A DNA stretch of 64,000 bases from an uncultured Desulfobacter sp. GTDB taxonomy: Bacteria > Desulfobacterota > Desulfobacteria > Desulfobacterales > Desulfobacteraceae. The stretch spans positions 310,001-374,000 of the forward strand of contig NZ_OY762229.1 of the NCBI RefSeq assembly GCF_963665355.1. Reading direction: 5' to 3'. Position 1 is the first letter of the stretch. Each line of letters opens with the position of its first letter. Shown piece by piece: positions 1,096 through 60,277 of this stretch. A program made the translations under genes and the position numbers. The notes under the pieces are model-generated. The model ran no database searches and was not told where the DNA came from. It saw nothing but the letters and a program-made list of their open reading frames with translations.

Positions 1096-1165
1096 AATAA
1101 CAGCCATGGGCTGATCCGGTATATCAACGGCCATATTCACCCCCCCCAACGAAGGTTGAAAGATC
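1096..1165 (+). repeat. Dispersed two-hairpin repeat, copy 1 (degenerate)
   Basis: This copy starts AATAACAGCCATGGGCTGAT and keeps the inner CCG/CGG stem and an outer GGG(C)TGA/TCA-CCC stem. It also has the TTGAAAGATC that opens the second hairpin, but the closing CTTTCATATAA is lost. It lies in the divergent region (854-1211) between the CoA-transferase-type gene and the GNAT gene. The rest of that stretch shows no convincing gene. See copies at 14041, 14133, 34201, 56340 and 60182. Confidence 0.65.
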
Positions 1166-1211
1166 AGTATAGGTGACACAGACGTTCTTACAAAAACCAA
1201 CAGGACAATTT

Positions 1212-2006
1212 ATGAATTTCACTATTGAGGTGTACCAGGACCCCGGACGCGTTCTTCCCGATGAGTCCATTGACAACCTATCCCGGGATATCCGGGAAAT
1301 TGCCGGTGACTGCTTCCACGACCTTCCTGAGTATCAGGCCATTGTCGGCACCCGAGGCGCACTTTGTGACAAACTGATCACCCTTGCCAGGGATGAGAAC
1401 AGTACGCCCCAGGGATTCTGCTCCATGGTGTTTTTAGACATTGAAGACGTGGGCCGGGTTCTGCATCTCGGCCTGACCTGCGTTCGGCCCGAAGCCAGGG
1501 GGAAACGGCTTACACATCTGCTGGTAAAAAAAGCATTGACCAGCTATCTTCTCAAGCAAAACCCCTTTGGTAAAATCTGGATTTCCAATTGCGCAGGGGT
1601 ATTGTCAAGCCTTGGTAATGTGGCCATGCACTTTGAGCAGGTATTTCCTTCTCCCTTCCACGCACAATGCCCCGGTGCCACTCACTTGAAAATTGCAAGG
1701 GCCATAAACGAACAGTTCAGGCCGGCGATGTATGTGCTGCCCGAAGCCCTGCTTGATGAAGAGAAGTTTGTGTTCCGGGGCAGTGTAAAAGATACGGTGT
1801 TTCATAAGGAAAAAGATGATTTGGCCTATCATCACAGAAAAAATGGTCTGAACCGGTTTTACGCCAATATGATGAATTTTGAGCAGGGAGACGAAGTACT
1901 CCAGATCGGCTATTTTCGCATGATCTCTGTGGTTAAATATATATTGCGCCAGCGCAGGGTGAAGCAACTGAACAGGCAGCAGGAACACCCGGTGCTGGAG
2001 TTGTAA
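1212..2006 (+). CDS. GNAT-fold acyltransferase, upstream partner of PlsC
   Basis: A 264-residue cytoplasmic protein. Around residues 85-115 it has a beta-strand followed by RPEARGKRLTHLLVKKAL, which fits the acyl-CoA-binding RGxGxGxxL/helix signature of GNAT acetyltransferases. The remainder is not recognisable by eye. I chose ATG 1212 because AGGA sits seven bases upstream; a GTG at 1173 is in frame but lacks a good ribosome-binding site. The stop is four bases before the PlsC start, so the pair is almost certainly co-transcribed and may modify the same lipid or lipid-linked substrate (inference). The gene lies just downstream of repeat copy 1. Confidence 0.7.
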   Translation: MNFTIEVYQDPGRVLPDESIDNLSRDIREIAGDCFHDLPEYQAIVGTRGALCDKLITLARDENSTPQGFCSMVFLDIEDVGRVLHLGLTCVRPEARGKRLTHLLVKKALTSYLLKQNPFGKIWISNCAGVLSSLGNVAMHFEQVFPSPFHAQCPGATHLKIARAINEQFRPAMYVLPEALLDEEKFVFRGSVKDTVFHKEKDDLAYHHRKNGLNRFYANMMNFEQGDEVLQIGYFRMISVVKYILRQRRVKQLNRQQEHPVLEL

Positions 2007-2010
2007 ATGT

Positions 2011-2730
2011 ATGGCCGATCTGAAATCTTTGTACAGGTTGTTCTGGGTCATTGAATTTACATTATTTTCTCTTTTACGCCTGGCTCTGGTTGCGGCCTCT
2101 TCGGGATGGACCCCGGATCTGGTGGCATCCAGGGCCCGGCAGTGGGCCGGGATACTGGTTAAAGGCCTTGATATTGAAATCACACAGACCGGTGACATCC
2201 CCGGCTATGGCGCACTGGTGGTTTCCAACCACAGGTCCTACCTGGACATCGTTATCATCCTTTCCCAGCTGAATGCAGCCTTTCTGGCCAAAAAGGAGCT
2301 GAAGTCCTGGCCCATTTTCGGCCTGGCGGCCAAACGGGGAAATACCGTATTTGTGGACAGATCCTGCGCAGAAAGCAGGACCACGGCACGCCGGGCCCTT
2401 GCAGAAAGGCTGTCCCAGGGGATCAGCGTAGTGGTTTTCCCGGAGGGCACCACCTCGGCCGGCCCGGGCATCCTTTCCTTTAAAAACGGAATATTTCACC
2501 TGGCGGCAACAAAAGATATCCCCGTTGTACCCGTGGCCATCTGCTATGAAAATCCCAGGGCCGCCTGGATCGGGGACGATTTTTTCCTGCCCCACTTTCT
2601 AAAAATATTTAAAACCGATGGATTAAAAGCCCGTCTGAATTTTGGACCAGCCCTGAGGATAAACGACGGCGCCACCCTTAAAGCGGCAGCGCATACCAGT
2701 ATCCAAAAACAATTGCGGGCCATGGAATAA
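2011..2730 (+). CDS. plsC: 1-acyl-sn-glycerol-3-phosphate acyltransferase family protein
   Basis: A 239-residue PlsC/LPLAT-family enzyme that transfers an acyl chain to lysophosphatidic acid or a related lysolipid at the inner membrane. It has a hydrophobic N-terminal segment (residues about 8-28), the catalytic HX4D motif in SNHRSYLD near residue 72, and the FPEGTTS glycerol-phosphate-binding motif near residue 145. Length fits the family. It follows the GNAT-like gene by four bases, so it may act on a product of that enzyme rather than be the housekeeping phospholipid acyltransferase; the sequence cannot settle this. Confidence 0.85.
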   Translation: MADLKSLYRLFWVIEFTLFSLLRLALVAASSGWTPDLVASRARQWAGILVKGLDIEITQTGDIPGYGALVVSNHRSYLDIVIILSQLNAAFLAKKELKSWPIFGLAAKRGNTVFVDRSCAESRTTARRALAERLSQGISVVVFPEGTTSAGPGILSFKNGIFHLAATKDIPVVPVAICYENPRAAWIGDDFFLPHFLKIFKTDGLKARLNFGPALRINDGATLKAAAHTSIQKQLRAME

Positions 2731-2738
2731 CGGCGTGG

Positions 2739-4193
2739 TCAGTTTTCGGTATTATCGTGGCTCTGTCTTTGGGAAATGCTGTATCTGATCTGAACCTTCT
2801 TGTGCTTGTCATCCGGCCGCAGGGAGGCTGGATTCATGATCAGCGCCACGGTAACAGCACCCGACGCTGTCAAAGTGTCAAGGGAAATTTGTTCGGTAAA
2901 GACCGTGGTTACGTCATCCAGAACAAGCTCCCCGCCAAAGAGTCTGACAGCTTCGGGAGTAATGCTCAGACCGGTCATGATAAGGCCTTCCGGCAGTTTC
3001 CCTGAAAAGTCCGCCTGGACAGGCACCAGTTTGTCCGCCCGGGTGTCCAGGGTCACCTCCACCTGATCCGGTTCAACCTGTTTCAGACGAATACCCGGAG
3101 GCAACTGAATATTGTGTCTGGCAATATCCAGTTTGTTTTTCCCCACTGTGCTGCCGTCAAGGGAGATCTTGATGCTCATCTGGTCCAGGGTCAAAGCATT
3201 GACCAGAGGCCGGGCACCGCTGATCAAAAGCCTGGCCCGGGAAGCGGACGTATTAATAATATTCATTTTTTTGTCAGGGATCATGAACTCAATGGGAACA
3301 TCATAGTTGGCCAAAGTTTCCATACCCCGTGAGAAACTCAGCCACAGGCCTGTGGTACATAAAAGGCACACCACGGCCGCCCCAAGCAGTTCCCGGGTCT
3401 GCCGGCGCATTCTATTCAGCGGTTCAGGGCCGCCCATATATTGCCTGATCAGCTTTTCAACCTTGTCAGGATCCCTGACCTCTTGAATCCTGTTGTCTTT
3501 TACAAGGGATACTTTTCCACGTTCCTCAGACACAACAATCACCAGGGCGTCGCTTTGTTCGGTCAGGCCCAGCGCGGCTCTGTGCCGGGTGCCGTATTTG
3601 GAAGCCAGATCCCGGTTCTGGGACAAAGGCAGAATGGTCCCGGCCCGGGTAATCATTCCTTTCTGGATCACAGCCGCCCCGTCATGGAGCGGTGCGCCGG
3701 GCCAGAAAATACCTACCAGCATTTCCCTGGACAGTGATGCATTAATCTCTATTCCGGAAGTGATGATGCTGTCCACCCCGGTTTTCAGGGGCATCACAAT
3801 CAAAGCCCCGATTTTCGACCGGGCCAATTCCACCACAGCATCCGCAATAATACGCACCGGAGTATTAATCTGGGCCCTGGGAATTTCCCATAGAAAAAAT
3901 CTGAGACTTCGGGTTCTGACCACCCCTGATATCTCATTGCGAAACACAATGATGATCACAAAGGTGGCAACGGTGATCACACCCTGCATGGCCCAGTTGG
4001 TAATGACCAGCCCCATGGCGTTGGCGCTGCGGCCGATGATCCACATGGCCACCACAGACAGAAGAACACGCAGGACATTGGTGCCCCGGAACAATACATA
4101 CAAACGAAACAGAATATATGCATTGAGAACGATATCCAGCACATCTTGCCAGCGACACCCGGAAAATAATAAAGAAAGCTGTTCCATGGGCAT
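2739..4193 (-). CDS. cdaA: Diadenylate cyclase CdaA fused to a YbbR (CdaR-like) region
   Basis: A 484-residue membrane protein. Residues about 10-85 are hydrophobic segments as in CdaA. Residues 105-245 form the DAC (DisA_N) domain with the catalytic DGA at 171-173 and RHR at 203-205, which condenses two ATP into c-di-AMP. A further membrane helix lies at about 268-287, followed by 190 residues resembling YbbR repeats (the CdaR regulator fold). In Firmicutes CdaA and CdaR are separate proteins from adjacent genes; here both are in one chain with the YbbR part probably periplasmic. The start overlaps the upstream DUF2914 stop by one base (TGATG), so the two are translationally coupled. DAC assignment is firm; the YbbR reading is moderate. 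Confidence 0.88.
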   Translation of the reverse strand: MPMEQLSLLFSGCRWQDVLDIVLNAYILFRLYVLFRGTNVLRVLLSVVAMWIIGRSANAMGLVITNWAMQGVITVATFVIIIVFRNEISGVVRTRSLRFFLWEIPRAQINTPVRIIADAVVELARSKIGALIVMPLKTGVDSIITSGIEINASLSREMLVGIFWPGAPLHDGAAVIQKGMITRAGTILPLSQNRDLASKYGTRHRAALGLTEQSDALVIVVSEERGKVSLVKDNRIQEVRDPDKVEKLIRQYMGGPEPLNRMRRQTRELLGAAVVCLLCTTGLWLSFSRGMETLANYDVPIEFMIPDKKMNIINTSASRARLLISGARPLVNALTLDQMSIKISLDGSTVGKNKLDIARHNIQLPPGIRLKQVEPDQVEVTLDTRADKLVPVQADFSGKLPEGLIMTGLSITPEAVRLFGGELVLDDVTTVFTEQISLDTLTASGAVTVALIMNPASLRPDDKHKKVQIRYSISQRQSHDNTEN

Positions 4194-4657
4194 CAGTCAG
4201 ACATGCAGAACCGCAATGTTTTTAAAAGCTTATTGTCTTCATCCCTGATTTCCACCCGCCAGGGTCCCTTGTCCGCATCGCGCATCTGGACCCGTGAGAA
4301 GGAGGACCATTTGGGAACGGAAAGAACCAGACGCATGGAAAAAATAAGTTTGTCCTTTTTATACCAGTTATGCAACACCGCTGTTTTTTCATACACCGGA
4401 TCAAAGGCGGTAAAGCAGAACACCTCTCCCTGGGAAACGGAAAAGACAACGGCGGGATTCACCGGCCTGAAACTGGATATTTCTTCACACATAACCGCTT
4501 CGGCCAAAACCATAAGGGGCTGGTCAGCCGAACCGGCACTGACCGGCATGATCAACAATCCCACCAGGCCCCAAGAGATAAGAAGACGGAAAAACAACCC
4601 AGAACATTTCCTTGTATCAAAATCCGGTATGTTATTGTCTGATGCTGTCATACACAC
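4193..4657 (-). CDS. DUF2914-type periplasmic protein
   Basis: A 154-residue protein with one hydrophobic segment near residues 25-42 ending in an Ala-rich signal-peptide-like region (PVSAGSA). The C-terminal 110 residues match the layout of DUF2914: GEVFCFTAFDPV, then HNWYKKDKLIFS, then a Trp-Ser stretch and GPWRVEIRDEDNKLLKTLRF. Its molecular role is not known. Its stop codon overlaps the start of the fused c-di-AMP cyclase, so it may act near the external YbbR part of that protein (inference). The region upstream has no other gene up to the terminator at 4717-4750. Confidence 0.7.
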   Translation of the reverse strand: MCMTASDNNIPDFDTRKCSGLFFRLLISWGLVGLLIMPVSAGSADQPLMVLAEAVMCEEISSFRPVNPAVVFSVSQGEVFCFTAFDPVYEKTAVLHNWYKKDKLIFSMRLVLSVPKWSSFSRVQMRDADKGPWRVEIRDEDNKLLKTLRFCMSD

Positions 4658-4716
4658 TGCTCTTTGCTAAACGTAAAAAAAACATGTGGGACTATATATA
4701 TATACCCGCCGGAGAG

Positions 4717-4750
4717 AAAAAAAAAGTCTGGATTTCCGGGCTTGACAGAC
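4717..4750 (-). terminator. Rho-independent terminator of the receiver-TPR gene
   Basis: Read on the minus strand, GTCTG and CAGAC pair around a loop that itself contains a GCCCGG/CCGG-like segment, followed by nine T residues. It sits directly after the stop of the receiver-TPR gene at 4768, so it probably ends that transcript. Confidence 0.7.
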
Positions 4751-4767
4751 GATGATCCCGGGCGGAT

Positions 4768-5916
4768 TTACATGGACCGGCGAAGCTCCAGAGCCTCTTT
4801 GTTTTCAGGGTCGAGACGCAGAACCTCGGCCAGAAACTCGTCTGCCTGGAGAATTTTTTCCTTGGCCATATAAATCTGGGCAATGGAAAGCTTGGTCTTT
4901 ATAGGTTCAATGCCATTTTTATTTGCCTCAAGGAGATATTCAAGGGCCTTGTCAGAATCGCCCAGGGCTTCGTAAATCTGGCCGGCTTTGAATTGCAGGC
5001 CCTGATTCCCGGGAAAATCTTTAAGCAGCTGTGTCAGCAACTCTCTGGCATATATTTTTTCCCCGTTTTCAGCGCACAGATCTAGGATCTTCCCTTTGAG
5101 GTCCAGGTGCTTGTCAAGCTTGTTCACCAGCTTGGTAAATAGCGTGGTGGCCAGTTCGTTCTGTTTCATTTTTAAAAGGGCCTGCCCCGCCTTAAGTGCA
5201 TAGTCATTGAACCGGTTGGTCAATGTCAGCACCTCGCAGGAATATTTGACCGCTTTACTCCACTGCTTTTTCTGCCAGTAAAACCTGGAGAGCATGTGGC
5301 GGGTTACGGCGTCCTGGAGATTATCAGCCGCCGCCTCAAGATAACATCGCTCCATCTCCTCAATCTTGCCGGCCTTGCCGTAAAGGATACCAAGATTGCG
5401 TTTCAGTCGTGATGCATGGGGTCTTAAGGCCACAGCCCGCTCCTGGCAGATAATGGCCATATCCAGTTTTTCAGCCTCGTCCAGGCTTCTGGCTTTTCTG
5501 ACAAGCAGGGTGGCTTCATCCGGGTCATTGGCCTTTTCCACGGCCTGGCGGATTTTTTCCTCAAGCATGGTGGGGGTCAGGGGTTTGAGCAGGAAACCGT
5601 CAACCTCGACTTCTGCGACTTCATACACCACATCCTTTTCCCGCTCTGCTGTCACCATCAACACGGGCATATCCCTCAATAGTGGTTCTGCCCGCATGGC
5701 ATCCAGCATCTGCATCCCGTTCATCACCGGCATTTTCCAGTCCACAATGACAAGGTCAATATGGGTGTGTTCAAGTACGCGCAAACCATCTCTACCATTT
5801 TCTGCGACATAAATCTCCTTGCCCAAATCCAGATGTCGCAATGTTTTTTTAAGAAGCGTACGCATACTCTTCAAATCATCAACAATCAACACAGACATAT
5901 TTTCTATATCAATCAT
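4768..5916 (-). CDS. Response regulator receiver with C-terminal TPR array
   Basis: A 382-residue protein. Residues 1-125 are a CheY-like receiver with the acidic pair in SVLIVDDLKSM, the phospho-acceptor Asp in VIVDWKMP, the Thr in MVTAERE and the Lys in LLKPLTP. From about residue 140 the chain is alpha-helical with repeated 34-residue TPR-like units (AKEKILQADEFLAEVLRLDP near the end). No DNA-binding or enzymatic output domain is seen, so output is probably through protein contacts. ATG 5916 is chosen because the receiver fold starts a few residues later; an upstream GTG at 5991 adds 25 unconserved residues. No histidine kinase is adjacent. Confidence 0.85.
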   Translation of the reverse strand: MIDIENMSVLIVDDLKSMRTLLKKTLRHLDLGKEIYVAENGRDGLRVLEHTHIDLVIVDWKMPVMNGMQMLDAMRAEPLLRDMPVLMVTAEREKDVVYEVAEVEVDGFLLKPLTPTMLEEKIRQAVEKANDPDEATLLVRKARSLDEAEKLDMAIICQERAVALRPHASRLKRNLGILYGKAGKIEEMERCYLEAAADNLQDAVTRHMLSRFYWQKKQWSKAVKYSCEVLTLTNRFNDYALKAGQALLKMKQNELATTLFTKLVNKLDKHLDLKGKILDLCAENGEKIYARELLTQLLKDFPGNQGLQFKAGQIYEALGDSDKALEYLLEANKNGIEPIKTKLSIAQIYMAKEKILQADEFLAEVLRLDPENKEALELRRSM

Positions 5917-6081
5917 GTGGCCAGCCCCGTACTCATAAAAAACAGAACAGAAAGTCGCATTAACTTTAGAAACAGAATTCTTATAAAACACTTAATAACA
6001 CGCCCCAAGAGGGCAAATCAATCTTTAACAACGTATGAAAAATTTAGCGCCAGCTCCCCTCATCACCTGTTGAAAACAGTA

Positions 6082-7629
6082 TCAGCGGGAGTCATCCCGG
6101 CTCTGATCCAGACGTTTATATTGAACCGCCTCAAGTACATGGGATTTGTGAATATCCCTGGTACCTGCCAGATCCGCGATGGTCCTGGCAAGCTTTAAAA
6201 TGGAGGCATAGGCCCGGCCGGACAGGTTAAACTGTTTCATGGCCTGTTCAACCACCCGCCGACTCTGGACATCAAGGGGACAAAACTGCTGCAAAAGCTT
6301 AGGTCCCATATCTGCATTGGAAAAACAAATGATTCCGGCCTGTTTAAACCGATCGGCCTGGGTGTCCCGGGCCTTTTTCACCCGTTTCCGGATGGCTTGG
6401 GAAGACTCCTGCTGTCCATCCGCGGTCATCTCCTTAAATGACAGCCGGGGTACCTCCACAAGGATGTCCATCCTGTCCATGAGCGGGCCTGAGATCTTGT
6501 TTTTGTACTGCTCAATTTTAGTCGGCGTGCAGGTGCATTCCCTGTCCGGATTGGTGAAATTGCCGCAGGGGCATGGATTCATGGCTGCAGCCAGCATAAA
6601 CCGGCATGGATAGGTGGCCTTGGCCTTGGCACGGGCCAGGGTGATGACGCCATCCTCCAAAGGCTGCCGCAGCACCTCCAGCACACTGCGCCGGAATTCA
6701 GGCAACTCGTCCAGAAACAGAACACCGTTGTGGGACAGTGTGATTTCTCCGGGCTTGGGTATCGTGCCGCCGCCCACAAGACCGGCATCGGAAATGGAAT
6801 GGTGGGGGGACCTGAAAGGCCTTGCGCCAAGGGGCTGCCCCGGTTCCCGGGCCACGTCTGCCACCGAATAGACCCGGGCGATTTCCATGGCCTCTTCAAA
6901 GGACGGTTCCGGCATGATTCCGGGCAGGCATTTTGCCATCAGGCTTTTCCCCGATCCCGCCGGGCCATTGAGCAAAATATGATGATGGCCTGCCGCCGCC
7001 ACCTCCATGGCCCGTTTGACATGGGTCTGGCCCCGGACATGGGCGAAGTCGTTTTCCAGGTCTGTCCCATCTGTCGCCAGAAGCATGGACAAATCGGGCT
7101 CCAGGGGCAAAAGTTCTGCCTTTCCCGCCAGAAAATCCACAACCTGGGACAGATGATCCGGAGCCAATACCTCAATATCCTTAACAAGTGCGGCCTGGGC
7201 ACCGTTATCCCGGGGCACAATAATGCCTTTAAATCCATTGTCCCGGGCAGCCAGGGCAAAAGGCAGAGCCGCCTTGACCGGCCGAAGGTATCCGTCCAGG
7301 GAGAGTTCAGCTGCAAAGAGCCAGGATGCTGCGGCAGACGCCTGGAATAAGCCCTGGGCACAAAGAATTCCCAGAGCCACGGGAAGATCAAGGCCTGTAC
7401 CCTCTTTTTTGAAATCCGCAGGTGCAAGGTTCACCACCACTCTGTCCATGGGAAAGCGGTACCCGGCATTCTGCAGGGCAGACCGGACCCTGTCGCGGCT
7501 TTCCCGGACAGCGGTTTCAGCAAGGCCAACCATGTTGAATACCGGCAGGCCCAGGGTGATATCCACTTCAACATCCACAACAATGGCCTCAAATCCGTTG
7601 ATTGCGCAGGACTTCATTTTTGCTATCAT
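6082..7629 (-). CDS. comM: YifB/ComM-family Mg-chelatase-like AAA+ ATPase
   Basis: A 515-residue protein of normal length for the family. It has an N-terminal ChlI-like/Lon-protease-type domain (residues 20-150), the Walker A motif GPAGSGKSLMAK near residue 220, Walker B LFLDELPEF, and the family signature AMNPCPCG followed by a small Cys cluster (CPCGNF...REC). ComM is a hexameric helicase that promotes branch migration during integration of transformed DNA. The gene is divergently placed from lpxC across a 163-bp AT-rich spacer. The role in this organism is inferred from the family only. Confidence 0.9.
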   Translation of the reverse strand: MIAKMKSCAINGFEAIVVDVEVDITLGLPVFNMVGLAETAVRESRDRVRSALQNAGYRFPMDRVVVNLAPADFKKEGTGLDLPVALGILCAQGLFQASAAASWLFAAELSLDGYLRPVKAALPFALAARDNGFKGIIVPRDNGAQAALVKDIEVLAPDHLSQVVDFLAGKAELLPLEPDLSMLLATDGTDLENDFAHVRGQTHVKRAMEVAAAGHHHILLNGPAGSGKSLMAKCLPGIMPEPSFEEAMEIARVYSVADVAREPGQPLGARPFRSPHHSISDAGLVGGGTIPKPGEITLSHNGVLFLDELPEFRRSVLEVLRQPLEDGVITLARAKAKATYPCRFMLAAAMNPCPCGNFTNPDRECTCTPTKIEQYKNKISGPLMDRMDILVEVPRLSFKEMTADGQQESSQAIRKRVKKARDTQADRFKQAGIICFSNADMGPKLLQQFCPLDVQSRRVVEQAMKQFNLSGRAYASILKLARTIADLAGTRDIHKSHVLEAVQYKRLDQSRDDSR

Positions 7630-7792
7630 AAAGGAACCTGATTTATAAAGATGAAAGTCAATTTATTGAATTTATATTAAATTATCAGAAAATTACTGCA
7701 AACCAAATATTTTTCTCATTTGTTTTGCTTTGTATTTTCAAATCAGCTATATATACCACGTTCTATATCAGTCAGACATTTTGGGGCGAATA

Positions 7793-8662: not shown

Positions 8663-8672
8663 TCAGAACTCA

Positions 8673-14040: not shown

Positions 14041-14136
14041 AATAACAGCCATGAGCTGACCTGACATATCAGCTGTCAGGCTCAGCCCACAACAAAGTTT
14101 GAAAGATCTTGGTGAGTTACCCAGTCTTTCATATAA
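14041..14136 (+). repeat. Dispersed two-hairpin repeat, copy 2 (tandem with copy 3)
   Basis: A near-complete copy from AATAACAGCCATGAGCTGAC to TCTTTCATATAA. First hairpin: GAGCTGA with TCAGCCC (one mismatch) enclosing CCTG/CAGG. Second hairpin: TGAAAGA with TCTTTCA. It lies directly after coaD and abuts the next copy, giving a period of about 93 bp. Confidence 0.8.
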
Positions 14137-14229
14137 ACAGCCATGGGCTGATCTGACATATCAACTGCCGGGCTCAGCCCACAACGAAGCAAGAAAGAAC
14201 CTGAACAACAAATGGGGCCTTTCATATAA
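14133..14229 (+). repeat. Dispersed two-hairpin repeat, copy 3 (tandem with copy 2)
   Basis: This copy runs from ATAAACAGCCATGGGCTGAT to CCTTTCATATAA. The first hairpin is GGGCTGA/TCAGCCC with an inner TCTG/CGGG stem using G-T pairs. The second is reduced to GAAAG/CTTTC. It ends 20 bp before the GTG of the LysR gene, so it would sit in the 5' leader of that message if transcribed through. Confidence 0.8.
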
Positions 14230-32795: not shown

Positions 32796-34205
32796 ATGGA
32801 AAACATTCAACAGGCAATCGAAAAAAACAAACTGCTTAAGCGGTTTTTGGAATCCATGGGAGACGGCGTATTTGTGCTTGATCCCACCGGGAAAATCGTT
32901 GCCTGGAATCCAGCCATGGAAGCCATCACCGGTTATTCATCCAGGGAAATTAAAGGGAAGAGTTGCCGGATACTCAAGTTCAGTAAATGTTTCGGTAAGG
33001 ACTGCCCTTCCGGGATGCATGACTGCAAGATACTTCAGACCGGAAAAGTCATTCCCACAGAATGTGTGATCAGCCACCGGAACGGACATCTCCTGGAAGT
33101 GAGTAAAAACGCCAGGGTCATTAGGGACGACAGCGGACAGATCATGGGGGTGATTGAAACAGTCACTGACCTGACCGAGCTTAAAAACACACGGCTGAAG
33201 ATAGAGCAAGCCGCACGCCGCCTGGGCGAGTTGAACAGACTGGGCGGCATCATAGCTAAAAGTGAGGTTATGCAAAATGTATTTTCTTTCATAAAAGCTT
33301 CAGCAGCATGCGAAACGTCCATTTTCATCCAGGGTGAAAGCGGAACGGGCAAAGAACTTGTGGCCGGGGCTATTCACTCCATCGGCGAGAGAAAAGACAA
33401 GCCCATGATTACGGTCAACTGCAGCGCGTTATCCGAATCATTACTGGAAAGTGAATTGTTCGGACATGTCAAAGGTGCATTTACCGGTGCGGTCCGGGAC
33501 CGGATCGGACGATTTGAGCAGGCTGATCAGGGTACTATATTCTTAGATGAAATCGGTGAAATTTCACCCTATATTCAGATAAAACTCTTGCGCGTACTCC
33601 AGGAAAAAGAGATAGAACGCGTTGGGGATTCCAAGAAACACAAGGTAAACATCAGGATCATCACGGCCACCAATAAAGATTTAAAATCACGGGTTGATGA
33701 GGGTTTTTTCAGGGAGGATCTGTATTACCGGCTCAAAGTGTTTCCCATCTACCTGCCCCCCTTGAGAAATCGCAGAGAAGACATCCCACTGCTGGTGGAC
33801 CATTTTATTAAGCTGAACAATAAAATTTCCGGCCAGACCGTTACCGGCATGGCAGAACCGGCCAGGAAAGTTTTCATGAAATATAGCTGGCCAGGAAATA
33901 TTCGGGAACTGGCCAATGCCATTGAACATGCATTCGTGCTCTGTTCAGACAACCAAATTGACCTGAAAGATCTTCCCCTTGAAATCAGCGGGCAGAACAC
34001 CACCTATGCTGCCCCTCTCCCACGTTATCCCAAGCCAGCCTCTCCCCGTAAAAAACAGCGGGAGTCTCTTGACCGAGACAGCTTACTGACCATCCTCACA
34101 GAGTCCGGATGGAACAAAGCTGAAGCGGCCAGACGGTCGGGCTTCAGCCGGGCAGCCATATGGAAATACATGAAAAAGTGGAACATTCCCATGCAGTCTG
34201 AATAG
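32796..34205 (+). CDS. PAS-domain sigma-54-dependent transcriptional regulator
   Basis: A 469-residue activator. Residues 10-130 form a PAS domain with several Cys (SCRILKFSKCFGKDCPSGMHDC), which could hold a redox or metal cofactor. The AAA+ domain has Walker A GESGTGKE, an intact GAFTGA loop (HVKGAFTGAVRD), Walker B FLDEIGE and the arginine-finger region. A Fis-type helix-turn-helix (NKAEAARRSGFSRAAIWKYMKKW) ends the chain. Unlike the NtrX-like protein at 11575, its sigma-54 contact loop is canonical. The likely target is the divergent DUF4242 gene or itself. Its stop codon overlaps repeat copy 4. Confidence 0.92.
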   Translation: MENIQQAIEKNKLLKRFLESMGDGVFVLDPTGKIVAWNPAMEAITGYSSREIKGKSCRILKFSKCFGKDCPSGMHDCKILQTGKVIPTECVISHRNGHLLEVSKNARVIRDDSGQIMGVIETVTDLTELKNTRLKIEQAARRLGELNRLGGIIAKSEVMQNVFSFIKASAACETSIFIQGESGTGKELVAGAIHSIGERKDKPMITVNCSALSESLLESELFGHVKGAFTGAVRDRIGRFEQADQGTIFLDEIGEISPYIQIKLLRVLQEKEIERVGDSKKHKVNIRIITATNKDLKSRVDEGFFREDLYYRLKVFPIYLPPLRNRREDIPLLVDHFIKLNNKISGQTVTGMAEPARKVFMKYSWPGNIRELANAIEHAFVLCSDNQIDLKDLPLEISGQNTTYAAPLPRYPKPASPRKKQRESLDRDSLLTILTESGWNKAEAARRSGFSRAAIWKYMKKWNIPMQSE

Positions 34206-34250
34206 CGGCCATGGGCAGACCTGACATAGCGTCTGCCAGACCCACCCCTG
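34201..34250 (+). repeat. Dispersed two-hairpin repeat, copy 4 (first hairpin only)
   Basis: Starts AATAGCGGCCATGGGCAGAC, overlapping the stop codon of the sigma-54 regulator. The hairpin is GGCAGAC/GTCTGCC, a perfect 7-bp stem that differs in sequence from the other copies. The second hairpin is absent. The rest of the gap to 34441 shows no convincing gene. Confidence 0.6.
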
Positions 34251-34441
34251 AAAAAACATGGCAATCCTCCCATATGAGTTGGCAGTTTACACAGGTGCCG
34301 ATTACTGTTATTTTTCCGATATGCCGGAAGAGCCCGGTCCTGATATCGCTGTTGATTATATAAACAGATACCGAAAGAGTTCGAAAGGGTTATTTGACCA
34401 AAGGCCCTGGAACCCGGGGCTGAGTTATGGAGGGGTATGGG

Positions 34442-52818: not shown

Positions 52819-52849
52819 CACAAAAGATACATAGCTTAAGTTGTGACAG

Positions 52850-53665: not shown

Positions 53666-53809
53666 ACCGGTGCTGCACTATGCGGACGCAAACTCATTTT
53701 TCAAAAAACATTTTCTATCATTTTTTTTTATGCGGCTTCTATTTCGGGGTTTTCATGGTTAGGTCTTTATGTTGGAAGAAACGGCACCCCATGGCTTGGC
53801 TGTTTAGGC

Positions 53810-54097
53810 ATGGGCGTAGTTGTTCTGATGATTCGCCATGAATATCTTGCAACTGCCTACCGCATTGACGTTATGGACTGCGGTCTATTGATAGCGTATC
53901 CGGCAAACAAAAGAACCATTGCGTATTCAGATATCTCAAGCATTAAAATGCCTGACTCCTTTCAAAAAGGAGCAAGACATCCAGAAGTATGGGTTATAGT
54001 ACAAAACGATAGAAAACCATATAAATTGAAGCAACTTGGTGTTGATGCGAACACCTTGTTTTTGACCTTGAAAAAAGCTAAGGATACGAAGACATAG
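53810..54097 (+). CDS. Small PH-like protein, N-terminus uncertain
   Basis: A 95-residue reading from ATG 53810. The segment AYRIDVMDCGLLIAYPANKRTIAYSDISSIKM fits a bacterial PH-like (bPH) beta barrel. Upstream, the same frame stays open back to about 53666 and encodes two likely membrane helices (SIIFFYAASISGFSWLGLYVG), but without an ATG and across a nine-T tract. The true protein may be a membrane-anchored PH-like protein that begins earlier, or the gene may have been broken. Function unknown. Confidence 0.45.
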   Translation: MGVVVLMIRHEYLATAYRIDVMDCGLLIAYPANKRTIAYSDISSIKMPDSFQKGARHPEVWVIVQNDRKPYKLKQLGVDANTLFLTLKKAKDTKT

Positions 54098-54112
54098 GTT
54101 CTTCTTTCCATG

Positions 54113-54904
54113 CTATTTAACCTTAGATTTAATGAGCACCTTATCCAGAACTGACGGGGCCCATTTGCTCAGGAACAATCCAATTTTTTCTTTGAGTCCT
54201 GCCGGGAACACATCCCGCTTGCGATGTTCAATCCCGTCCAGGATGACTGCCGCAGTTTGTCCCGGGGTCAACCCGCCTGCCAAGGCTCTATCCATTTTTC
54301 CGTATCGGCTGCCATCTGCCGTAAGCGCATTTACGGAATTTTCCGTTTGTACGAACCCCGGGCTGATAACCATGACATGCACACCCTTTTTCATGATTTC
54401 CAGACGTACGCTGTTCAAATACCCCTGCAAGGCATGTTTGCTGGCATTGTAACCGGATCGTTCCTGGGTGGAATACCGCCCCATCATACTGGAAACTGCC
54501 GCAATATGGCCTTTAGTTTTAATAACATGCTGCAGACCATGTTTAAAAAAATAGAGCATGGAAAAAAAATTGGTTTCCATGATGTCTCGATAAACCTGGA
54601 TGTCGGTTTCCTCAGCCAGGGCACGCATGGAGACCCCTGCATTGTGAATAATGCCATCAAGCCGTCCTGTAGTTGACACGGCCAGTTCAATGGCAGATCT
54701 GCAGTCATCCTCCCTGGTGACATCCCCCTGAAAAACAATTATATTTGGCCCTGCCTGGCTTTTCAAAGCCTCTAATTTTTTCAATGTGCGGGCCATGGAA
54801 ACAACTTTAACCCCTCTTTTGGCCAGCCTGGCGGATACCGCCCGGCCAATCCCAGAGCTCGCGCCTGTAACAACAAAAGTTTTGCCCTTAAAAAATTTGT
54901 TCAT
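54113..54904 (-). CDS. Short-chain dehydrogenase/reductase
   Basis: A 263-residue classical SDR. The cofactor loop is VTGASSGIGRAVSARL (residues 12-27), NNAG is replaced by HNAGVS near residue 88, and the catalytic Ser-Tyr-Lys are in VSSMMGRYSTQERSGYNASKHAL. The substrate is unknown. AAGGAGATATGA precedes the ATG. It converges with the PH-like gene. Confidence 0.88.
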   Translation of the reverse strand: MNKFFKGKTFVVTGASSGIGRAVSARLAKRGVKVVSMARTLKKLEALKSQAGPNIIVFQGDVTREDDCRSAIELAVSTTGRLDGIIHNAGVSMRALAEETDIQVYRDIMETNFFSMLYFFKHGLQHVIKTKGHIAAVSSMMGRYSTQERSGYNASKHALQGYLNSVRLEIMKKGVHVMVISPGFVQTENSVNALTADGSRYGKMDRALAGGLTPGQTAAVILDGIEHRKRDVFPAGLKEKIGLFLSKWAPSVLDKVLIKSKVK

Positions 54905-55438
54905 TCATATCTCCTTTTCACTAAATGCACCATTAGCCGGGATGCTTGCAAATCCAATTCTCCGGGAAGCAGGGAACTAAGACTTTTAATTGTTAACCAT
55001 AGAACTTGTAAAGCAGTATTTTTTTTGCAGTTAATCAACTATTTTATCAAAATTTTAGACCCAAACAGTGGCACGGGTTTAATCTGCTTGATATAGACGG
55101 AACGACCGTCCGGTTAGCCTGGTGGCCGCAATTAGGTCTTCTTTAAATTTTTTGACAAAAAACGTTTTCCTATCCATGTGCACCTGTCATCTTTTTTTAC
55201 ACACTGTCTTCCAATATGATGCTCTTACTTTGTTTCCCGGCCTTCCCCATCTGGGAGGATTTTGCCCAAAACATTATTCATCCAGTCGTTACAGCTTTTC
55301 TTCCCCCAAAATCATTAATGGCATACTTGTTGATAATACAGCTGTTGAACGGGCAAAGTGCCTGCGGGAATAAACCTTTAAATGTTTTTAAGGCAGGTCA
55401 ACTGATGTACAACCTAAATGAGAAGGGAGGCAAAAAAA
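54905..55438. other. 534-bp stretch without a convincing gene
   Basis: A minus-strand open frame at 55079-55177 gives a 32-residue peptide (DRKTFFVKKFKEDLIAATR) that may be a relic. The left part is AT-rich with an 8-T run. The right part carries GGGAGG, which serves the gene at 55439. Confidence 0.45.
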
Positions 55439-56191
55439 ATGATACATGGAAAGCCTATAACAATATGTATTCTCACCATGGCATTACAGGTAAAAAAACT
55501 GATGATAATCACAGCACTCTGCCTTACGGCAACATTCACCATGGCCCCGGAGCATTTAAACGCAGGGGAGAGCACTGTCTGGAATAAAGGGATCATAGAT
55601 GAGCTGACCCAATATTATTTGGCCAGGGCATCCGTTGAAAAGCAATACGGCATGCTTTCTGACTATCAGGCCGATAAGGCCATGCACGACTTTTTAACAA
55701 CCAGGAAAACTCAGTTGCAGTCTGTCCTTAAAACAAAAGGAAGATCAATGGAGCTTGAGGACGCAAATAAAGCGACATTGGAATATTTCCGGGATTGCTC
55801 CAAGGGAAGAGCTTCAGGGACTGCCGCAGACCGGGTATGTGATGAGCGTTATGTTGATATAAGAACCGGGCATCTTTACGTGAAAAACAGTGAAGGAAAC
55901 TATGATGAATTTACCAGGAAAGGGGCGTTTTTCAAAACTGTTCCCGCAGACCTTCCCCTCCTTTTAAAAGGAAAGTCCGTTTATTCCGTTTCAAATAAAA
56001 ATTATCTGCTTTATTCCCAGAAAGGGCGCCTGCCCGATTCCCGGGTAAAGGTTCTGCCTGCCATGGCACCACACCCCAAGGGCTGGTCCCTGGAAACCAT
56101 TCTTGTGGGTCTGAATTTTAACGCCACAGAATATAACGGAAAAATCACCCAAGGTGGAATCGAAAACCAGACGCTATTTCAACACCCTTGA
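55439..56191 (+). CDS. Exported protein of unknown function
   Basis: A 250-residue protein. A long N-terminal region with a signal-peptide-like stretch ends near residue 45 (LMIITALCLTATFTMAPEHLNAG). The mature part has an alpha-helical region (DELTQYYLARASVEKQYGML) and a beta-rich end (YVDIRTGHLYVKNSEGNYDEF). Two Cys (DCSKGRASGTAADRVC) could form a disulfide. ATG 55439 is chosen because GGGAGG lies eight bases upstream. I do not recognise a family; its neighbours do not suggest a role. Confidence 0.6.
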   Translation: MIHGKPITICILTMALQVKKLMIITALCLTATFTMAPEHLNAGESTVWNKGIIDELTQYYLARASVEKQYGMLSDYQADKAMHDFLTTRKTQLQSVLKTKGRSMELEDANKATLEYFRDCSKGRASGTAADRVCDERYVDIRTGHLYVKNSEGNYDEFTRKGAFFKTVPADLPLLLKGKSVYSVSNKNYLLYSQKGRLPDSRVKVLPAMAPHPKGWSLETILVGLNFNATEYNGKITQGGIENQTLFQHP

Positions 56192-56339
56192 AAGGGTAAG
56201 AAACGCCAATCATGGAATTTAGTCTCCTATGGTTATGCGATTTAACAAAAATTTTTTCGATAAAATTAGAGTCAGTCTTTGGGTGAGATAAAAAACCTTA
56301 GGCTTATTTCCCAACATCATGAATCTATTGTTGTTCTTT

Positions 56340-56434
56340 ATAACAGCCATGGGCTGACCTGACATATCAGCTGCCAGGCTCAGCCCGCAGCAAAGCTTGA
56401 AAGATCTGAGTGAGCTACCCTGTCTTTCATATAA
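56340..56434 (+). repeat. Dispersed two-hairpin repeat, copy 5 (best-preserved)
   Basis: ATAACAGCCATGGGCTGACC to TCTTTCATATAA. The first hairpin is a perfect GGGCTGA/TCAGCCC stem with an inner CCTG/CAGG; the second is TGAAAGA/TCTTTCA. A small hairpin CATCCT/AGGATG (56440-56455) follows. The rest of the 56192-56532 gap shows no gene. Confidence 0.85.
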
Positions 56435-56532
56435 AAAAGCATCCTATACAGGATGATAATCTTACCCGAACCAATATTGCAAGGTAGGATAAATTCAAAT
56501 CTTTAAGATTGGATATACGTAGAGGAACAACA

Positions 56533-56643
56533 ATGAAGTTTGAAGAATTCGTCGCTGGTAGCCACAAGCAGCAATTTCAATTATATTTACGGGATTATGG
56601 ACAGGTGGTTCGTTTGTCTTGGGATATGAGTTTCTCCAAATGA
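56533..56643 (+). pseudogene. Possible Fic-family N-terminal relic
   Basis: A 36-residue open frame beginning MKFEEFVAGSHKQQFQLYLR with AGAGGA upstream. The first 18 residues resemble the N-terminus of Fic/DOC-type proteins (MKFEDFxxGKxxQQYQ). The frame then stops. It runs into the end of the DUF188 gene on the other strand. Could be chance. Confidence 0.3.
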
Positions 56644-57056
56644 TTTGCAAACGCATTGCAGTTCTTTGCAGCTAATGGAGGCGGACCACCGGTGTCGATA
56701 CCACTGGCCCGCAAGGACTCCTTGAATTCTCTCATGTGAAGGTGGCCTCTGATGCTGTCTGAAGAATATAATTCACCACGGGGGCTGAGGGCATGGCCAC
56801 CCTTTTCCAACACTTGCGCCGCCAAGGGGATATCGCTGGTGATGACGAGATCTCCAATCTCAAGTCTTTTCACAATCTCATTGTCAGCAACGTCAAAGCC
56901 GGGAGCAACTTGTAATAGCTTAATCCACTCCAGTCGTGGGATGTGCATGTATTGATTGGCAACCAGCGTTAATGGCACTCTTGTACGCTGGGATGCTTTA
57001 AACAAAATATTCTTAATCACTGCAGGACATGCATCGGCATCTACCCATATTTTCAT
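56595..57056 (-). CDS. yaiI: YaiI/YqxD family protein (DUF188, UPF0178)
   Basis: A 153-residue cytoplasmic protein. It starts MKIWVDADACPAVIKNIL, the PIN-like acidic motif of the family, with GDLVITSDIPLAAQVLEKGG near residue 70 and a closing GHLHMREFKESLRASG. The PIN-like fold suggests a nuclease, but function is unproven. ATG 57056 fits the conserved MKIWVDADACP; the longer in-frame start at 57113 adds unconserved residues. GGGAGAGTGA precedes it. It follows the SUI1 gene. Confidence 0.92.
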   Translation of the reverse strand: MKIWVDADACPAVIKNILFKASQRTRVPLTLVANQYMHIPRLEWIKLLQVAPGFDVADNEIVKRLEIGDLVITSDIPLAAQVLEKGGHALSPRGELYSSDSIRGHLHMREFKESLRASGIDTGGPPPLAAKNCNAFANHLEKLISQDKRTTCP

Positions 57057-57081
57057 TTCACTCTCCCAAAGCCGTAAGGTA

Positions 57082-57450
57082 TTATCCCCCAGCTTTTTTT
57101 GCTTTATATCCAAGAGAGTTGAGATGTTCGGTCAATAAATCACGGTGATCTCCTTGGATTTCTATAGTACCGTTTTTTACCGTACCGCCAGTACCGCATT
57201 TTTGTTTTAGTTCTTTGGCAAGCTCCCTTAAGGAGGTGCTTTCAAGCGTAAGACCCGTAATGAGGGTTACGCCTTTTCCTTTCCGTCCCTTGGTCGATCT
57301 TTCCACAAGGATCTGCCCGTCACCTCTGGGGCTTGTATGTGTGTTTTTCTTTTTGCAGATACATTTAGCAGCCTGCTTACCACAGGACGGACAGATCCTT
57401 CCTGATTCAGTTGAATAGACAAGTCTGCTATTTGAGTCTCGATTTTTCAA
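57082..57450 (-). CDS. yciH: SUI1/YciH-type translation initiation factor homologue
   Basis: A 122-residue protein. Residues 15-35 have a small zinc-binding-like pair (CPSCGKQAAKCIC). The SUI1 domain covers about 45-120: LVERSTKGRKGKGVTLITGL, KCGTGGTVKNGTIEIQGDHR and a final LNSLGYKAKKAGG. Bacterial SUI1 proteins resemble eukaryotic eIF1 and may affect start-site fidelity. The start is TTG 57450, supported by GGAG nine bases upstream; no ATG is in frame nearby. It lies 25 bp before the yaiI start. Confidence 0.85.
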   Translation of the reverse strand: MKNRDSNSRLVYSTESGRICPSCGKQAAKCICKKKNTHTSPRGDGQILVERSTKGRKGKGVTLITGLTLESTSLRELAKELKQKCGTGGTVKNGTIEIQGDHRDLLTEHLNSLGYKAKKAGG

Positions 57451-57647
57451 TTTTAACTACTCCGTTTTTGATCCTCAATGTCAGGGAAAGTATCATTATA
57501 TGATCATCGATTCTTCCGTTTTTCCACAGGGGGGAAGATATGTCGCAAATTTTTCTTCTCCATCAAAGCCGAGCAGTTCATCTCATTCTCCCTGATCATG
57601 GGCCGCAATAGTACAGGTCTCGGCAATTTGTTAATGGTTATACAATA

Positions 57648-58052
57648 TTAGGCTCTGATTTCATATTGAAACCTGATTGCCGCATAGGCGTTGGATATCA
57701 TGACAAAAAAAGAATCCCGGCAGCGTTCCGGGAGCATGGCATCTACTTTGTTTCGAATATCATCGTTGATGTGAGCATATATCTGACTGATGAGCAGGGC
57801 CATAACTGCCAGATCATCGACAAAGCCTATTCCAGGGATGGGGTCAGGAACTGCATCCAGGGGGCAGATCAGATATCCCAAGGCACCGATGATAGCCGTT
57901 TTTGCCCACAGCGGGGTGGACGATTCTTTCAGCAGCACGTACAGGGCGAATGCTGCTCTCAGGACTTAACATCCGGCTGTTTCAGGCATTTTTGTTACTT
58001 TGTTCCAGAAGTTCTCATCTGAATATGAGTCGCTGTGATCTTTTTCCGTCAT
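57648..58052 (-). pseudogene. YkvA-type (DUF1232) gene with in-frame TAA
   Basis: From ATG 58052 (GGGAG nine bases upstream) the frame reads MTEKDHSDSYSDENFWNKVT, and codon 29 is TAA (57968-57966). The same frame then continues with RAAFALYVLLKESSTPLWAK and GALGYLICPLDAVPDPIPG, the DUF1232 core, to a normal stop. The frame is intact apart from that one codon. TAA is not a known selenocysteine or pyrrolysine codon. A GTG at 57938 could restart translation to give 96 residues. Function of YkvA proteins is unknown; they are small membrane-associated proteins. Confidence 0.75.
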
Positions 58053-58426
58053 GATGCTATTCTCCCGTGCCATACTCCATTAATTATTTTTTTCATTAGT
58101 TTCTTCCTTATTTGATGAGTTCTCAATTGATCCTTTATGTTGCTAAAATCATTATATTTACCTATATTTTGGGTTAATACGAATAGGGAGTTGGAAAAAT
58201 TGCTATTGCCCGTACGAGAAAGAATGACGGTATAATCAAAAAGCTCTTGTTTACAGCCTTTGCTTTTGGTTATCGACAGTGTATTGTTATGCTGTTGTAT
58301 TCGATATTTGTCTTAAAATCGGAGGTGTCGAAAGGACGGTCATGTACTCCATTAATAAGACCGCAAAATTTCTAAAAGGGTTACTGCCTTCCTTATTCAC
58401 AAAAATTATTCAGGACAAAAAATATT
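58053..58426. other. 374-bp stretch without a convincing gene
   Basis: The stretch is AT-rich. The plus-strand open frame that crosses 58279-58578 runs out of frame with the NERD gene and has poor coding character. Nothing else is recognised. Confidence 0.4.
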
Positions 58427-59335
58427 ATGATGTTGTTTCTCAGTTCACAGATAGTGCTTCCCATAATCGTTCTTGGCATTCTCTTCGTGTTTGTAAGTAT
58501 TTACCGCTTTGTAGAACTGAGAAAAAAGAGACGCTCTCCTTTTACCGATGCTGCTTTACTAAGGCTTCCTGGTCATAGTCTTAACAATCAGATAGAAGAA
58601 CTGTCAGAAAACTTAAATTTGTATATTTTCGGAATATTTTTTTCTGCTCTGGTTTTTACCCAGATTGTCGTGCTGTTGTCAGAACTAAAAGGTGTTGCAC
58701 CATACCCCTCAAAATTTCCACTGCATTATTGCATGTTGATCATCATTATTGGTGTTCTCCTATATAAAATAGCCAAATGTTTAACCTATAGAAATAGGCT
58801 GAGATTGGGTTATGAGGGGGAATTAGTTACAGCACAGGAACTGCATCATCTGATGCCGGAAGGTAATTATGTATATCATGATTTCCCCGCTGGCAATTTT
58901 AATATTGACCATGTTGTTGTTGGCCCCGCCGGTGTTTTTGCCGTTGAAACCAAGACACGATCAAAAAGAACATCCGGAGACAAAATTAAAGAAGCCAGTG
59001 CGGAGTATAACGGAAAGGAAATAGTTTTTCCGGAGTTTAGAGACAAAAGCTACCTTGATCAAGCTCAACGACAGGCAAAGTGGCTATCTAAATGGCTGAC
59101 AAGTGCCACAGGTGAACATGTTGAGGTTTTTCCAGTGGTGTCGCTTCCTGGATGGTATATTGAGCGAAAAACTGGCTATAATGGAACATTCGTTGTAAAT
59201 CCAAAGCAACTGAAAAGTGTTATCCTGTCAAAATCAAATCATCGAATAGATTCTAAAAAAATTCAGCAGATTAATCATCAGCTGGAAGCTAAATGCCGTG
59301 ATATTGAAATCAAATCTAAACAGTATGACAAGTGA
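58427..59335 (+). CDS. Membrane-anchored NERD-domain nuclease
   Basis: A 302-residue protein. Hydrophobic helices lie at about 5-25, 62-85 and 97-117. From about residue 125 the NERD (nuclease-related) domain reads LGYEGELVTAQELHHLMPEG, then DFPAGNFNIDHVVVGPAGVFAVETKTRS, with the Asp-Glu-x-Lys metal-binding set (IDH...ETK) of the PD-(D/E)XK fold. It is probably a membrane-held DNA endonuclease; NERD proteins occur in defence and plasmid contexts. AGGA precedes ATG 58427. Its stop is 9 bp before the truncated HNH-like gene. Confidence 0.85.
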   Translation: MMLFLSSQIVLPIIVLGILFVFVSIYRFVELRKKRRSPFTDAALLRLPGHSLNNQIEELSENLNLYIFGIFFSALVFTQIVVLLSELKGVAPYPSKFPLHYCMLIIIIGVLLYKIAKCLTYRNRLRLGYEGELVTAQELHHLMPEGNYVYHDFPAGNFNIDHVVVGPAGVFAVETKTRSKRTSGDKIKEASAEYNGKEIVFPEFRDKSYLDQAQRQAKWLSKWLTSATGEHVEVFPVVSLPGWYIERKTGYNGTFVVNPKQLKSVILSKSNHRIDSKKIQQINHQLEAKCRDIEIKSKQYDK

Positions 59336-59344
59336 TAAATTGAT

Positions 59345-59575
59345 ATGAATCTGGATGCCTACCTGAAAAAATTTACAAAACTGAGAACTGGTGTAAGTCA
59401 TGGTCATCTTAAACCACACAAACCGTTGATGATGCTGGCTATACTCTCATTGATAGAGAATAGAAAAATTACATCCAACAGAATTGATTATTCACCGCAG
59501 TTGCTTGAACTCTTTAAACGGTTCTTTGATATTGTCAGGGCAGAGCAGGATGCGTTGAATCCACTTCTGCCCATG
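59345..59575 (+). pseudogene. Truncated N-terminus of an HNH restriction-like endonuclease
   Basis: From ATG 59345 the reading gives MNLDAYLKKFTKLRTGVSHG, then HKPLMMLAILSLIENRKI and ELFKRFFDIVRAEQDALNP. This layout resembles the N-terminal half of HNH-type restriction endonucleases (LKPHKPLL...LL..I). Around 59570 it runs into an IS110-type relic on the opposite strand; the frame stops at 59599. The catalytic HNH part is absent. The upstream partner is the NERD nuclease. Confidence 0.5.
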
Positions 59576-59960
59576 CGACCTGCACTAAAATCGTTTTGAA
59601 TGGATGATTCCGAACCGCGTTCCGGCCACTTTTTCTTTTACCTGCGCTTTATTGTTTCCAGGGCACAATCCGGCCCATGCAACAAAAGCAACCATGCTTT
59701 CAAACTCATCCAATGTAACACCGGTTTCGCCAAGAATGGATTGTGCTGACTGCTTATCGATCCCGGGAACTTCATCTAATCTTTCCAGTAAATTTGCATG
59801 GTCACGGGTAAGCATTTCCAATCTGACATTAATCTGTTCAATCTGTTTTTGAAACATCTCAATGACTTCCATCATACCAGTCAACTGGAATCAATGATGA
59901 TCTTTAAAATATCCATGGAGAGTTGATCAACCATCGTGTCCTATTTAGGCAATGGGCTCG
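59570..59960 (-). pseudogene. IS110-family transposase C-terminal relic
   Basis: The minus-strand reading gives LLERLDEVPGIDKQSAQSIL, then GETGVTLDEFESMVAFVAWAG and LCPGNN, the transposase-20 domain of IS110. After CPGNN a frame change lets GKRKSGRN...RNHPFKTILV continue on the other frame. The N-terminal RuvC-like part is missing apart from short pieces up to about 59960. It is a relic. Confidence 0.75.
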
Positions 59961-60181
59961 AGATATAATCATTCACCTGTCTGTCTGGTTTAGAAAAGGG
60001 TATGATAAATTCTAACTTTCGGCGGAGGAAACGCTTCAAGAAACAACACGCAAAAGCTATCATGCTTTTTGCACTAAAAGACAGGCTTTTTTAAACCGGT
60101 AAAATTTGTTCGTGATCAGTGAGAACTTGATGTATATTGTTATGATATCGATCATGATTCGAAGACGAATCCCATAACTGA

Positions 60182-60277
60182 CTAACGGCCATGGGTCGAC
60201 CTGGTCTCTCAACACCCAGGCCCAACCCACAACAAAACATGAAAGTAACTCAGCAGCTTATTGGTACTTTCATATAA
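60182..60277 (+). repeat. Dispersed two-hairpin repeat, copy 6 (divergent, strong pairing)
   Basis: CTAACGGCCATGGGTCGACC to TACTTTCATATAA. The first hairpin uses GGGT/ACCC and CCTGG/CCAGG; the second is a 9-bp ATGAAAGTA/TACTTTCAT stem. Both stems differ from the common sequence yet stay paired, which supports selection on structure. The rest of 59961-60341 shows no gene. Confidence 0.85.

Follow-up and report, generated by a model that had tools for sequence, protein, structure and literature searches.

A widespread family of hairpin-forming intergenic repeats, probably mobile in trans, in an uncultured Desulfobacter

Six copies of a repeat in the window

The window described here is a stretch of 64,000 nucleotides (nt) from an uncultured Desulfobacter sp., corresponding to positions 310001-374000 of the 5.54-Mb contig C2 in an assembly of 5.64 Mb. 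It carries six copies of a hairpin-forming intergenic repeat, which a first-pass annotation had placed at 1096, 14041, 14133, 34201, 56340 and 60182. All six were verified in the sequence at these positions and on the plus strand, four as full copies (14041, 14133, 56340 and 60182) and two as decayed ones (1096 and 34201). Comparison of sequences places the six in one family of repeats about 92 bp long, which are probably non-autonomous mobile DNA elements moved in trans. The copies are as follows:

1101..1193, plus strand: copy 1, decayed; target AATAA at 1096-1100; 105.5 bits, the copy being itself in the training set of the model
14046..14137, plus strand: copy 2, full, first of a head-to-tail pair; target AATAA at 14041-14045; terminus CATATAAA
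14138..14229, plus strand: copy 3, full, second of the pair; abuts copy 2 directly
34206..34278 (3' limit approximate), plus strand: copy 4, decayed and shortened; 70.8 bits, likewise in the training set
56344..56435, plus strand: copy 5, full, near the family consensus; target TATAA at 56339-56343
60186..60278, plus strand: copy 6, full, of a second subfamily CGGCC...GGTCTCTC...ATGAAAGTA; target ACTAA at 60181-60185

A 15-nt core, allowing up to three mismatches, matches the window nine times, as compared with 3.46 ± 1.76 times in shuffles, none of 100 shuffles reaching nine. Six of the nine matches are the copies listed above. The folding z-scores against shuffles are -4.3 (14041), -2.7 (14133), -2.4 (56340), -1.8 (60182), -1.1 (34201) and +1.0 (1096). 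Because of their weak folding the copies at 1096 and 34201 look decayed, the former being no better than shuffles. The compensatory stem changes cited in the annotation are present in the sequence. The copies are non-coding, as had been claimed, and the copy at 34201 begins immediately 3' of the TAG stop of the open reading frame 32796-34205.

The family in the genome

Judging from the letters of the genome, the repeat family is larger than the window and is spread to intergenic gaps, often exactly at gene ends. The genome-wide covariance-model search that the annotation had proposed yields at least 150 copies, far beyond six. The model, built from the six window copies, matches all of the best 150 among 1268 first-look candidates (150/150; worst E-value 2.5e-4). 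All 150 scored copies are located on contig C2, 78 of them on the plus and 72 on the minus strand, so the uniform orientation holds within the window and not genome-wide. The figure of 150 is a lower bound, because more diverged or truncated copies were found in the stretches examined; these make up 10% of the contig, include all 150 copies and form one conflict-free coordinate line. Independent of the model, a 25-nt core with up to three mismatches has 74 matches in the genome (reversed control, 0), and the 16-nt 5' end with up to one mismatch has 148 (reversed control, 2). Eleven 5' ends, picked by eye from 100 among these 148 matches, lie beyond the 150 copies; several are decayed near-full copies and the rest are truncated. 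Three lone 5' ends, near 712563 (L225), 35108 (L223) and 2781087 (L230), all on the minus strand of contig C2, retain the target and the terminal hairpin, the remainder being missing or unrecognised by the profile. A T-run is found 3' of the right hairpin in 1 of the 150 copies and, on the minus strand, in 5, which agrees with the earlier statement that the repeats are not simple terminators.

Counted from AAC up to the right end, the consensus spans 93 nt and in outline reads AAC-R-GCCATGGGC-Y-GA-CCTGACATATCAGCTGCCAGG-C-TCRGCCC-ACAACRAAG-NTTGAAAGAT...CTTTCATATAA; the next base is A in 94% of copies. The joints are best read as giving an element of about 92 nt that starts at CRGCC and stops with ATATAA(A), with the 5' end CRGCC-ATG-GGCYG and the 3' end TTTCATATAA(A). 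A 5' end with two possible hairpins is followed by the conserved linker CCCACAACRAA and then by a 3' hairpin that terminates in TTTCATATAA(A). The alignment used comprises 132 copies, the 18 of 150 outside 92-95 nt being left out.

The left and right modules have been recombined among the 150 host copies, many of which are unclassified on one or both sides. The left type GGYCT is combined with ATGAAAGT right ends in 12 copies and with TTGAAAGA right ends in 6, and the left type GNCAT with TTGAAAGA in 47 and ATGAAAGT in 2.

Target site and joints

The target directly 5' of the copies is (W)ATAA or ACKAA. In 142 copies, eight second-in-tandem copies having been left out, the three bases preceding AAC are TAT in 46, AAT in 36, ACT in 18 and ACG in 15. 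Where the left flank is ACT or ACG, ATATAA is in most cases still present at the right end, which thus belongs to the element and is not a target duplication. The 4-mers on the two sides are identical in no more than 2 copies at offset 0 and 3 at offset 1, out of 150. Nor is there a terminal inverted repeat: of the 12 terminal positions compared, 0-3 match in all but six of the 150 copies (144), and the best value, 7 of 12, is reached by one copy. The missing inverted repeat and target duplication both argue against a miniature inverted-repeat transposable element of a classical DDE insertion sequence, an explanation to which size and copy number, comparable to those of ERIC or RUP, would lend themselves and which is extremely improbable.

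The right end of the element also serves as a target, and this gives rise to head-to-tail pairs. There are eight such pairs. The joint (marked here by a slash) is ...ATAA/CRGCC or ...ATAG/CRGCC in seven of them and ATAAA/CAGCC in one, the window pair. In addition, the copy at 1937842 is nested within an older family member. Three congeners (G055, G059 and G063) have matches of about 187 nt to the window tandem pair, which suggest that head-to-tail pairs are common there.

Head-to-tail tandems would also be expected if a small circle were integrated by a tyrosine or serine site-specific recombinase, or captured as in integrons, and the sequence TTTCNTATAA shared by right end and target might then be a common core. 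The target core, however, tolerates ACTAA, ACGAA and TAG. The attC sites of integrons carry the boxes RYYYAAC and GTTRRRY at their ends; among the 150 copies, R'' is found in 2, R' in none and both together in none. Integration of this kind is very unlikely.

Copies absent from orthologous spacers

The operon spacer between the genes for enoyl-CoA hydratase and phenylacetate-CoA ligase (named by eye) is present in all 19 genomes of the genus. In the host an element directly follows the TAA stop; a profile search finds none in 18 of 18 congeners. The spacer of the window pair holds two copies in the host, one copy elsewhere in the spacer in G043 and none in 16 congeners; G060 is not assessable. 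The filled site of G043 reads CATTATAA/CAGCC...CATATGAAA/TTAATATCAACGGG, with the left joint after ATTATAA. Its empty counterpart in G063 reads CATTATAA/TTAATATCAACGGG, and G047 has the same sequence with one base different. G063 is probably the same genome as Desulfobacterales MAG.189, on the basis of their shared spacer sequence. Between MAG.189 and the host, which are 83-85% identical, copies have turned over, and most spacers are too diverged for exact joints.

It is mainly because of this absence from orthologous spacers that most copies are taken to be insertions rather than ancestral regulators. The annotation had offered a structured RNA or a REP-like mobile element as the best reading. 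The mobile part of it is borne out by copy number, empty sites, target motif and tandem and nested insertions.

A different stretch of about 150 nt occupies the spacer between the genes on either side of 4758736-4758828 of contig C2 in 7 of 18 congeners (L249, L250, L251, L253, L255, L256 and L257). It contains a long near-perfect palindrome (GCATAAAAATTTACAA...TTGTAAATTTTTATGC) and looks both orthologous and conserved among the seven.

Copies at gene ends

A WATAA or ACTAA flank is present at 101 copies, and in 24 of these the target TAA also ends the upstream gene as its stop codon. Stop codons make up 46 of the 1344 available non-coding WATAA and ACTAA sites (odds ratio 8.8, p 3e-12), which were taken from the 10% of the contig around the copies, with genes from a codon-based caller rather than a standard annotation. 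When all flanks are counted, 28 of 150 copies lie at an upstream stop codon. The strong enrichment at stop codons is thus shown, through either preference or survival. The enrichment extends to positions 1-20 bp 3' of stops (7 copies, 23 sites), with no difference from the stops themselves (p 0.35); it may thus be gene ends at large that are preferred or tolerated. GTAG REPs behave in a related way, the ends of these repeats being known to overlap stop codons (PMC3733652).

Two alternative 5' hairpins

Three hairpins can be drawn in the element: 1) H0, the terminal 5' hairpin CNGCC-AYG-GGCN'G; 2) H1, in which GGGCN'GA pairs with TCNGCCC and encloses an inner stem; 3) H2, the right hairpin. Pairing was counted in 130 distinct host copies, two duplicate rows being counted once. 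For H0 the paired share of cells is 94.9%, and both-side changes number 38 versus 13.3 ± 2.6 in shuffles; for H1 and H2 together the share is 84.0%, with 153 such changes versus 68.5 ± 6.7.

Since relatedness inflates counts of both-side changes, other genera were added to the test. The resulting set of 32 sequences combines 18 copies of three other genera (G034, G010 and G002) with 14 host copies. Bases 7 and 17 pair in 29 of the 32, through all four Watson-Crick types (A-T 9, T-A 9, G-C 7, C-G 4). Bases 17 and 44 (alignment column 48) pair in 25 of the 32, again through all four types. The pairing signal of base 17 is lost when the partners are slid by 1-3 columns. Bases 7 and 44 are identical, and each complementary to base 17, in 12 of the 18 copies from other genera. 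H0 and the outer part of H1 exclude each other because both need the same strand, and two alternative 5' hairpins are thus both kept. The long hairpin is favoured when the element is folded alone. RNAalifold assigned zero pairs to the 132-copy alignment, and the profile model (R2) was for this reason made from sequence only.

These data uphold the word "structured" in the annotation; they do not separate RNA from single-stranded DNA as the folded strand. Among all 25 host pairs, A.C mismatches outnumber G.T (264 versus 169). Five columns in which the subfamilies differ account for the excess; G.T prevails in the remaining 20 pairs (158 versus 95, the five columns having been chosen after the fact). 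Outside these columns the counts thus favour the plus strand as the one that folds, either as RNA or as single-stranded DNA. Use of the A.C excess as an argument against an RNA role was withdrawn, as it reverses without the five columns. Copies without a close sister pair somewhat less than others (H1, 0.82 versus 0.88; H2, 0.79 versus 0.88; H0, 0.93 versus 0.97), which suggests that old copies drift. A stronger decay figure based on distance to the consensus was withdrawn because it mixes age and subfamily.

Conserved paired bases with both-side changes would likewise be expected of functional structured RNAs, regulatory or small, that selection keeps at their loci. The prevalence of G.T over A.C in the 20 pairs taken together would follow if a plus-strand transcript folds, and some copies lie between probably co-transcribed genes, for example between the stop of the enoyl-CoA hydratase gene and the start of the phenylacetate-CoA ligase gene. 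Single-stranded DNA, however, predicts the same strand bias. The orthologous spacers tested carry no copy, except for the one other copy in G043, old copies drift, the A.C excess across all 25 pairs points the other way, even though five columns drive it, and Rfam has no match. An RNA function as the reason for the family is therefore considered unlikely.

Distribution among relatives

The Desulfobacterales, the order to which the host belongs, are sulfate reducers. Of 59 genomes drawn from the bacterial family, 38 including the host have a match at E<=1e-3 and 21 have none. All 11 other members of the genus in this draw match, two of them with 3-4 matches only. The occurrence outside the genus is patchy: with the best 150 candidates scored in each genome, 147 copies were obtained in G034, at least 150 in G002, 111 in G010, 47 in G005, 18 in G001 and 12 in G012. 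Of 145 genomes drawn from the order, eight match at E<=1e-5 with stricter filters; five of the eight belong to other families, and in three of the five the only match may be due to chance. An exact 24-mer search gave 44 stretches of Desulfobacterales MAG.189 and no other record of the collection, which may omit the host and its close relatives. Phage and plasmid records contain no match, and the single 20-nt match in the viral collection lacks the 5' hairpin and looks like chance.

Search for the mobilizing enzyme

A number of observations weigh against movement of the family in trans. All both-side changes of H0 fall in pair 7-17, one of its five pairs. The number of H0 pairs with such a change is not above shuffles, and that of H1 and H2 pairs, 17 versus 14.5 in shuffles (56 of 500 reach it), is not clearly above them. 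Copy orientation has no robust bias relative to replication (61-66 versus 84-89 copies and p 0.03-0.16, according to where origin and terminus are placed). The target class shows no clear guide-like covariation with the bases 5' of the long hairpin, although the pairing may be non-canonical. No autonomous partner was found among the Y1, RAYT-like and Y2 loci examined, and the ends of the element were not found at four of the five host Y1 loci. Three candidate mobilizers were rejected: 1) IS200, of which 18 copies in three congeners (G043, G047 and G055) were compared, those of G043 and G047 being unlike the repeat in both ends and targets; 2) RAYT, as no copy lies directly beside the RAYT-like genes of congeners, the nearest being 2.4 kb away in L210; 3) the IS91 type (Y2), which has matches in 36 of 59 genomes but none in G016 or G005. 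G016 contains copies with E-values down to 4e-28 and yet no Y2 match; G005, whose assembly is only 80% complete, contains 47 copies and neither a Y1 nor a Y2 match.

The five host matches to Y1 (PF01797; E<=1e-3; L061-L065) are IS200-like by eye and none is RAYT-like. At the fifth locus, the fragment L064, a tandem pair is located 575 bp away; a random place lies within 600 bp in 4.3% of cases. One of seven alike Y1/IS200 copies of G043 lies about 390 bp from a family copy. In G034 a broken IS200-like Y1 gene (L217:4110-4703) lies about 145 bp from a diverged family copy. The closeness in these three cases is read as chance, which is not proven. Within the IS200 set of G055 six of seven left flanks are alike, so the left end could not be placed there. 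The ten host Y2 matches come no closer to a family copy than 628 bp. Mutual information between target class and element columns is strongest in the loop and the right hairpin, where it tracks the subfamilies. The bases 5' of the right hairpin are variable.

The test for RAYTs covered 23 Y1 frames in 20 loci and revealed RAYT-like genes of about 223 amino acids, named by eye, in G016, G033, G055 and G047. In G033 two consecutive RAYT-like frames were observed (L205:3975-5083), the first being a 128-residue partial copy of the second. Such genes are one reason to consider a true REP or REPIN family moved by a RAYT (TnpA-REP); others are the intergenic position of the hairpin-forming repeats, their number above 100 and their overlap with stop codons, which is also described for GTAG REPs (PMC3733652). 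Against this, GTAG is found 5' of the hairpin in 3 and CGTC in 4 of the 150 copies, the host Y1 matches include no RAYT-like one, the RAYT-like genes examined have no adjacent copy, and the element is about three times as long as a REP. A RAYT-driven family is quite unlikely, and the repeat, REP-like as the annotation has it, is not a REP strictly speaking, the tag being missing in most copies and a linked RAYT not having been found.

Possible mode of movement

By combining these observations, it is possible to outline how a non-autonomous element of this kind might move. Elements of the IS200/IS605 type insert 3' of a fixed target, produce no target duplication and have no terminal inverted repeat. 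Single-strand transposition as in this group is the most likely working mode, which does not imply membership in it. The element would move as folded single-stranded DNA, with cleavage supplied in trans by a strand-specific enzyme, HUH-like or otherwise. The candidate enzyme might read TTTCNTATAA both as the target and as the cleavage site at the right end. The mobilizer may have been borrowed or lost. Some copies may have been co-opted, with an RNA role added at some of them.

It is also conceivable, if doubtful, that the hairpins competing for GGCN'G form the conformational switch of a new strand-specific type of mobility. The 5' CNGCC, freed at TAA/C, and the internal CNGCCC would then swap partners during excision and insertion, and the enzyme would be neither a Y1 nor a Y2 HUH protein and would home to stop codons.

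The family adds to a bacterial family a large group of repeats unmatched in Rfam or in the papers searched. Its copies change the spacers between adjacent genes, and one placed exactly at a stop codon can leave the gene unharmed. The repeat offers a test case for the spread of small repeats without a recognisable resident transposase, and with its ends, target and empty sites defined and its pairing followed across genera, a direct search for the enzyme becomes feasible.

Comparison with known systems

The annotation knew of no named family with this sequence, and both the Rfam scan that it had suggested and the open-access literature agree with this. Rfam 15 gives no match above the gathering score in the window; for the copy at 56340 the best of ten weak matches has an E-value of 0.39 and 16.6 bits, compared with a gathering score of 50. 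The open-access literature contained no description of the repeat family, which is weak evidence of absence as most subscription papers were outside the scope. The section on repeats in the paper on the HRM2 genome counts 2357 exact repeats, each at least 50 bp long, and names no such family (PMC2702500), and a term search of PMC2267715 returned nothing on one.

ERIC, RUP and Correia/NEMIS (reviewed in PMC10969869) are, like the present element, non-autonomous repeats of about 100 bp with hairpins; unlike them, the element has no terminal inverted repeats or target duplication that could be found. The GTAG/CGTC REPs that go with RAYTs (PMC3733652, PMC8266576) resemble it as intergenic palindromic mobile repeats of high copy number near gene ends, whose termini can supply a stop codon. 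They differ in length (20-40 nt as compared with 92), in the tag, which few copies of the element carry, and in their RAYT, for which no linked counterpart was found. The element also has two different hairpins in fixed order and orientation.

The miniatures of IS200/IS605, a group whose hairpins, strand specificity and guides are treated in PMC8266576, differ from the element in three respects: 1) its ends are not those of the readable IS200 elements; 2) no clear covariation of guide and target is seen; 3) two 5' hairpins compete. The likeness lies in the hairpin near each end, the insertion 3' of a short target without duplication or inverted repeat, and the right end that resembles the target.

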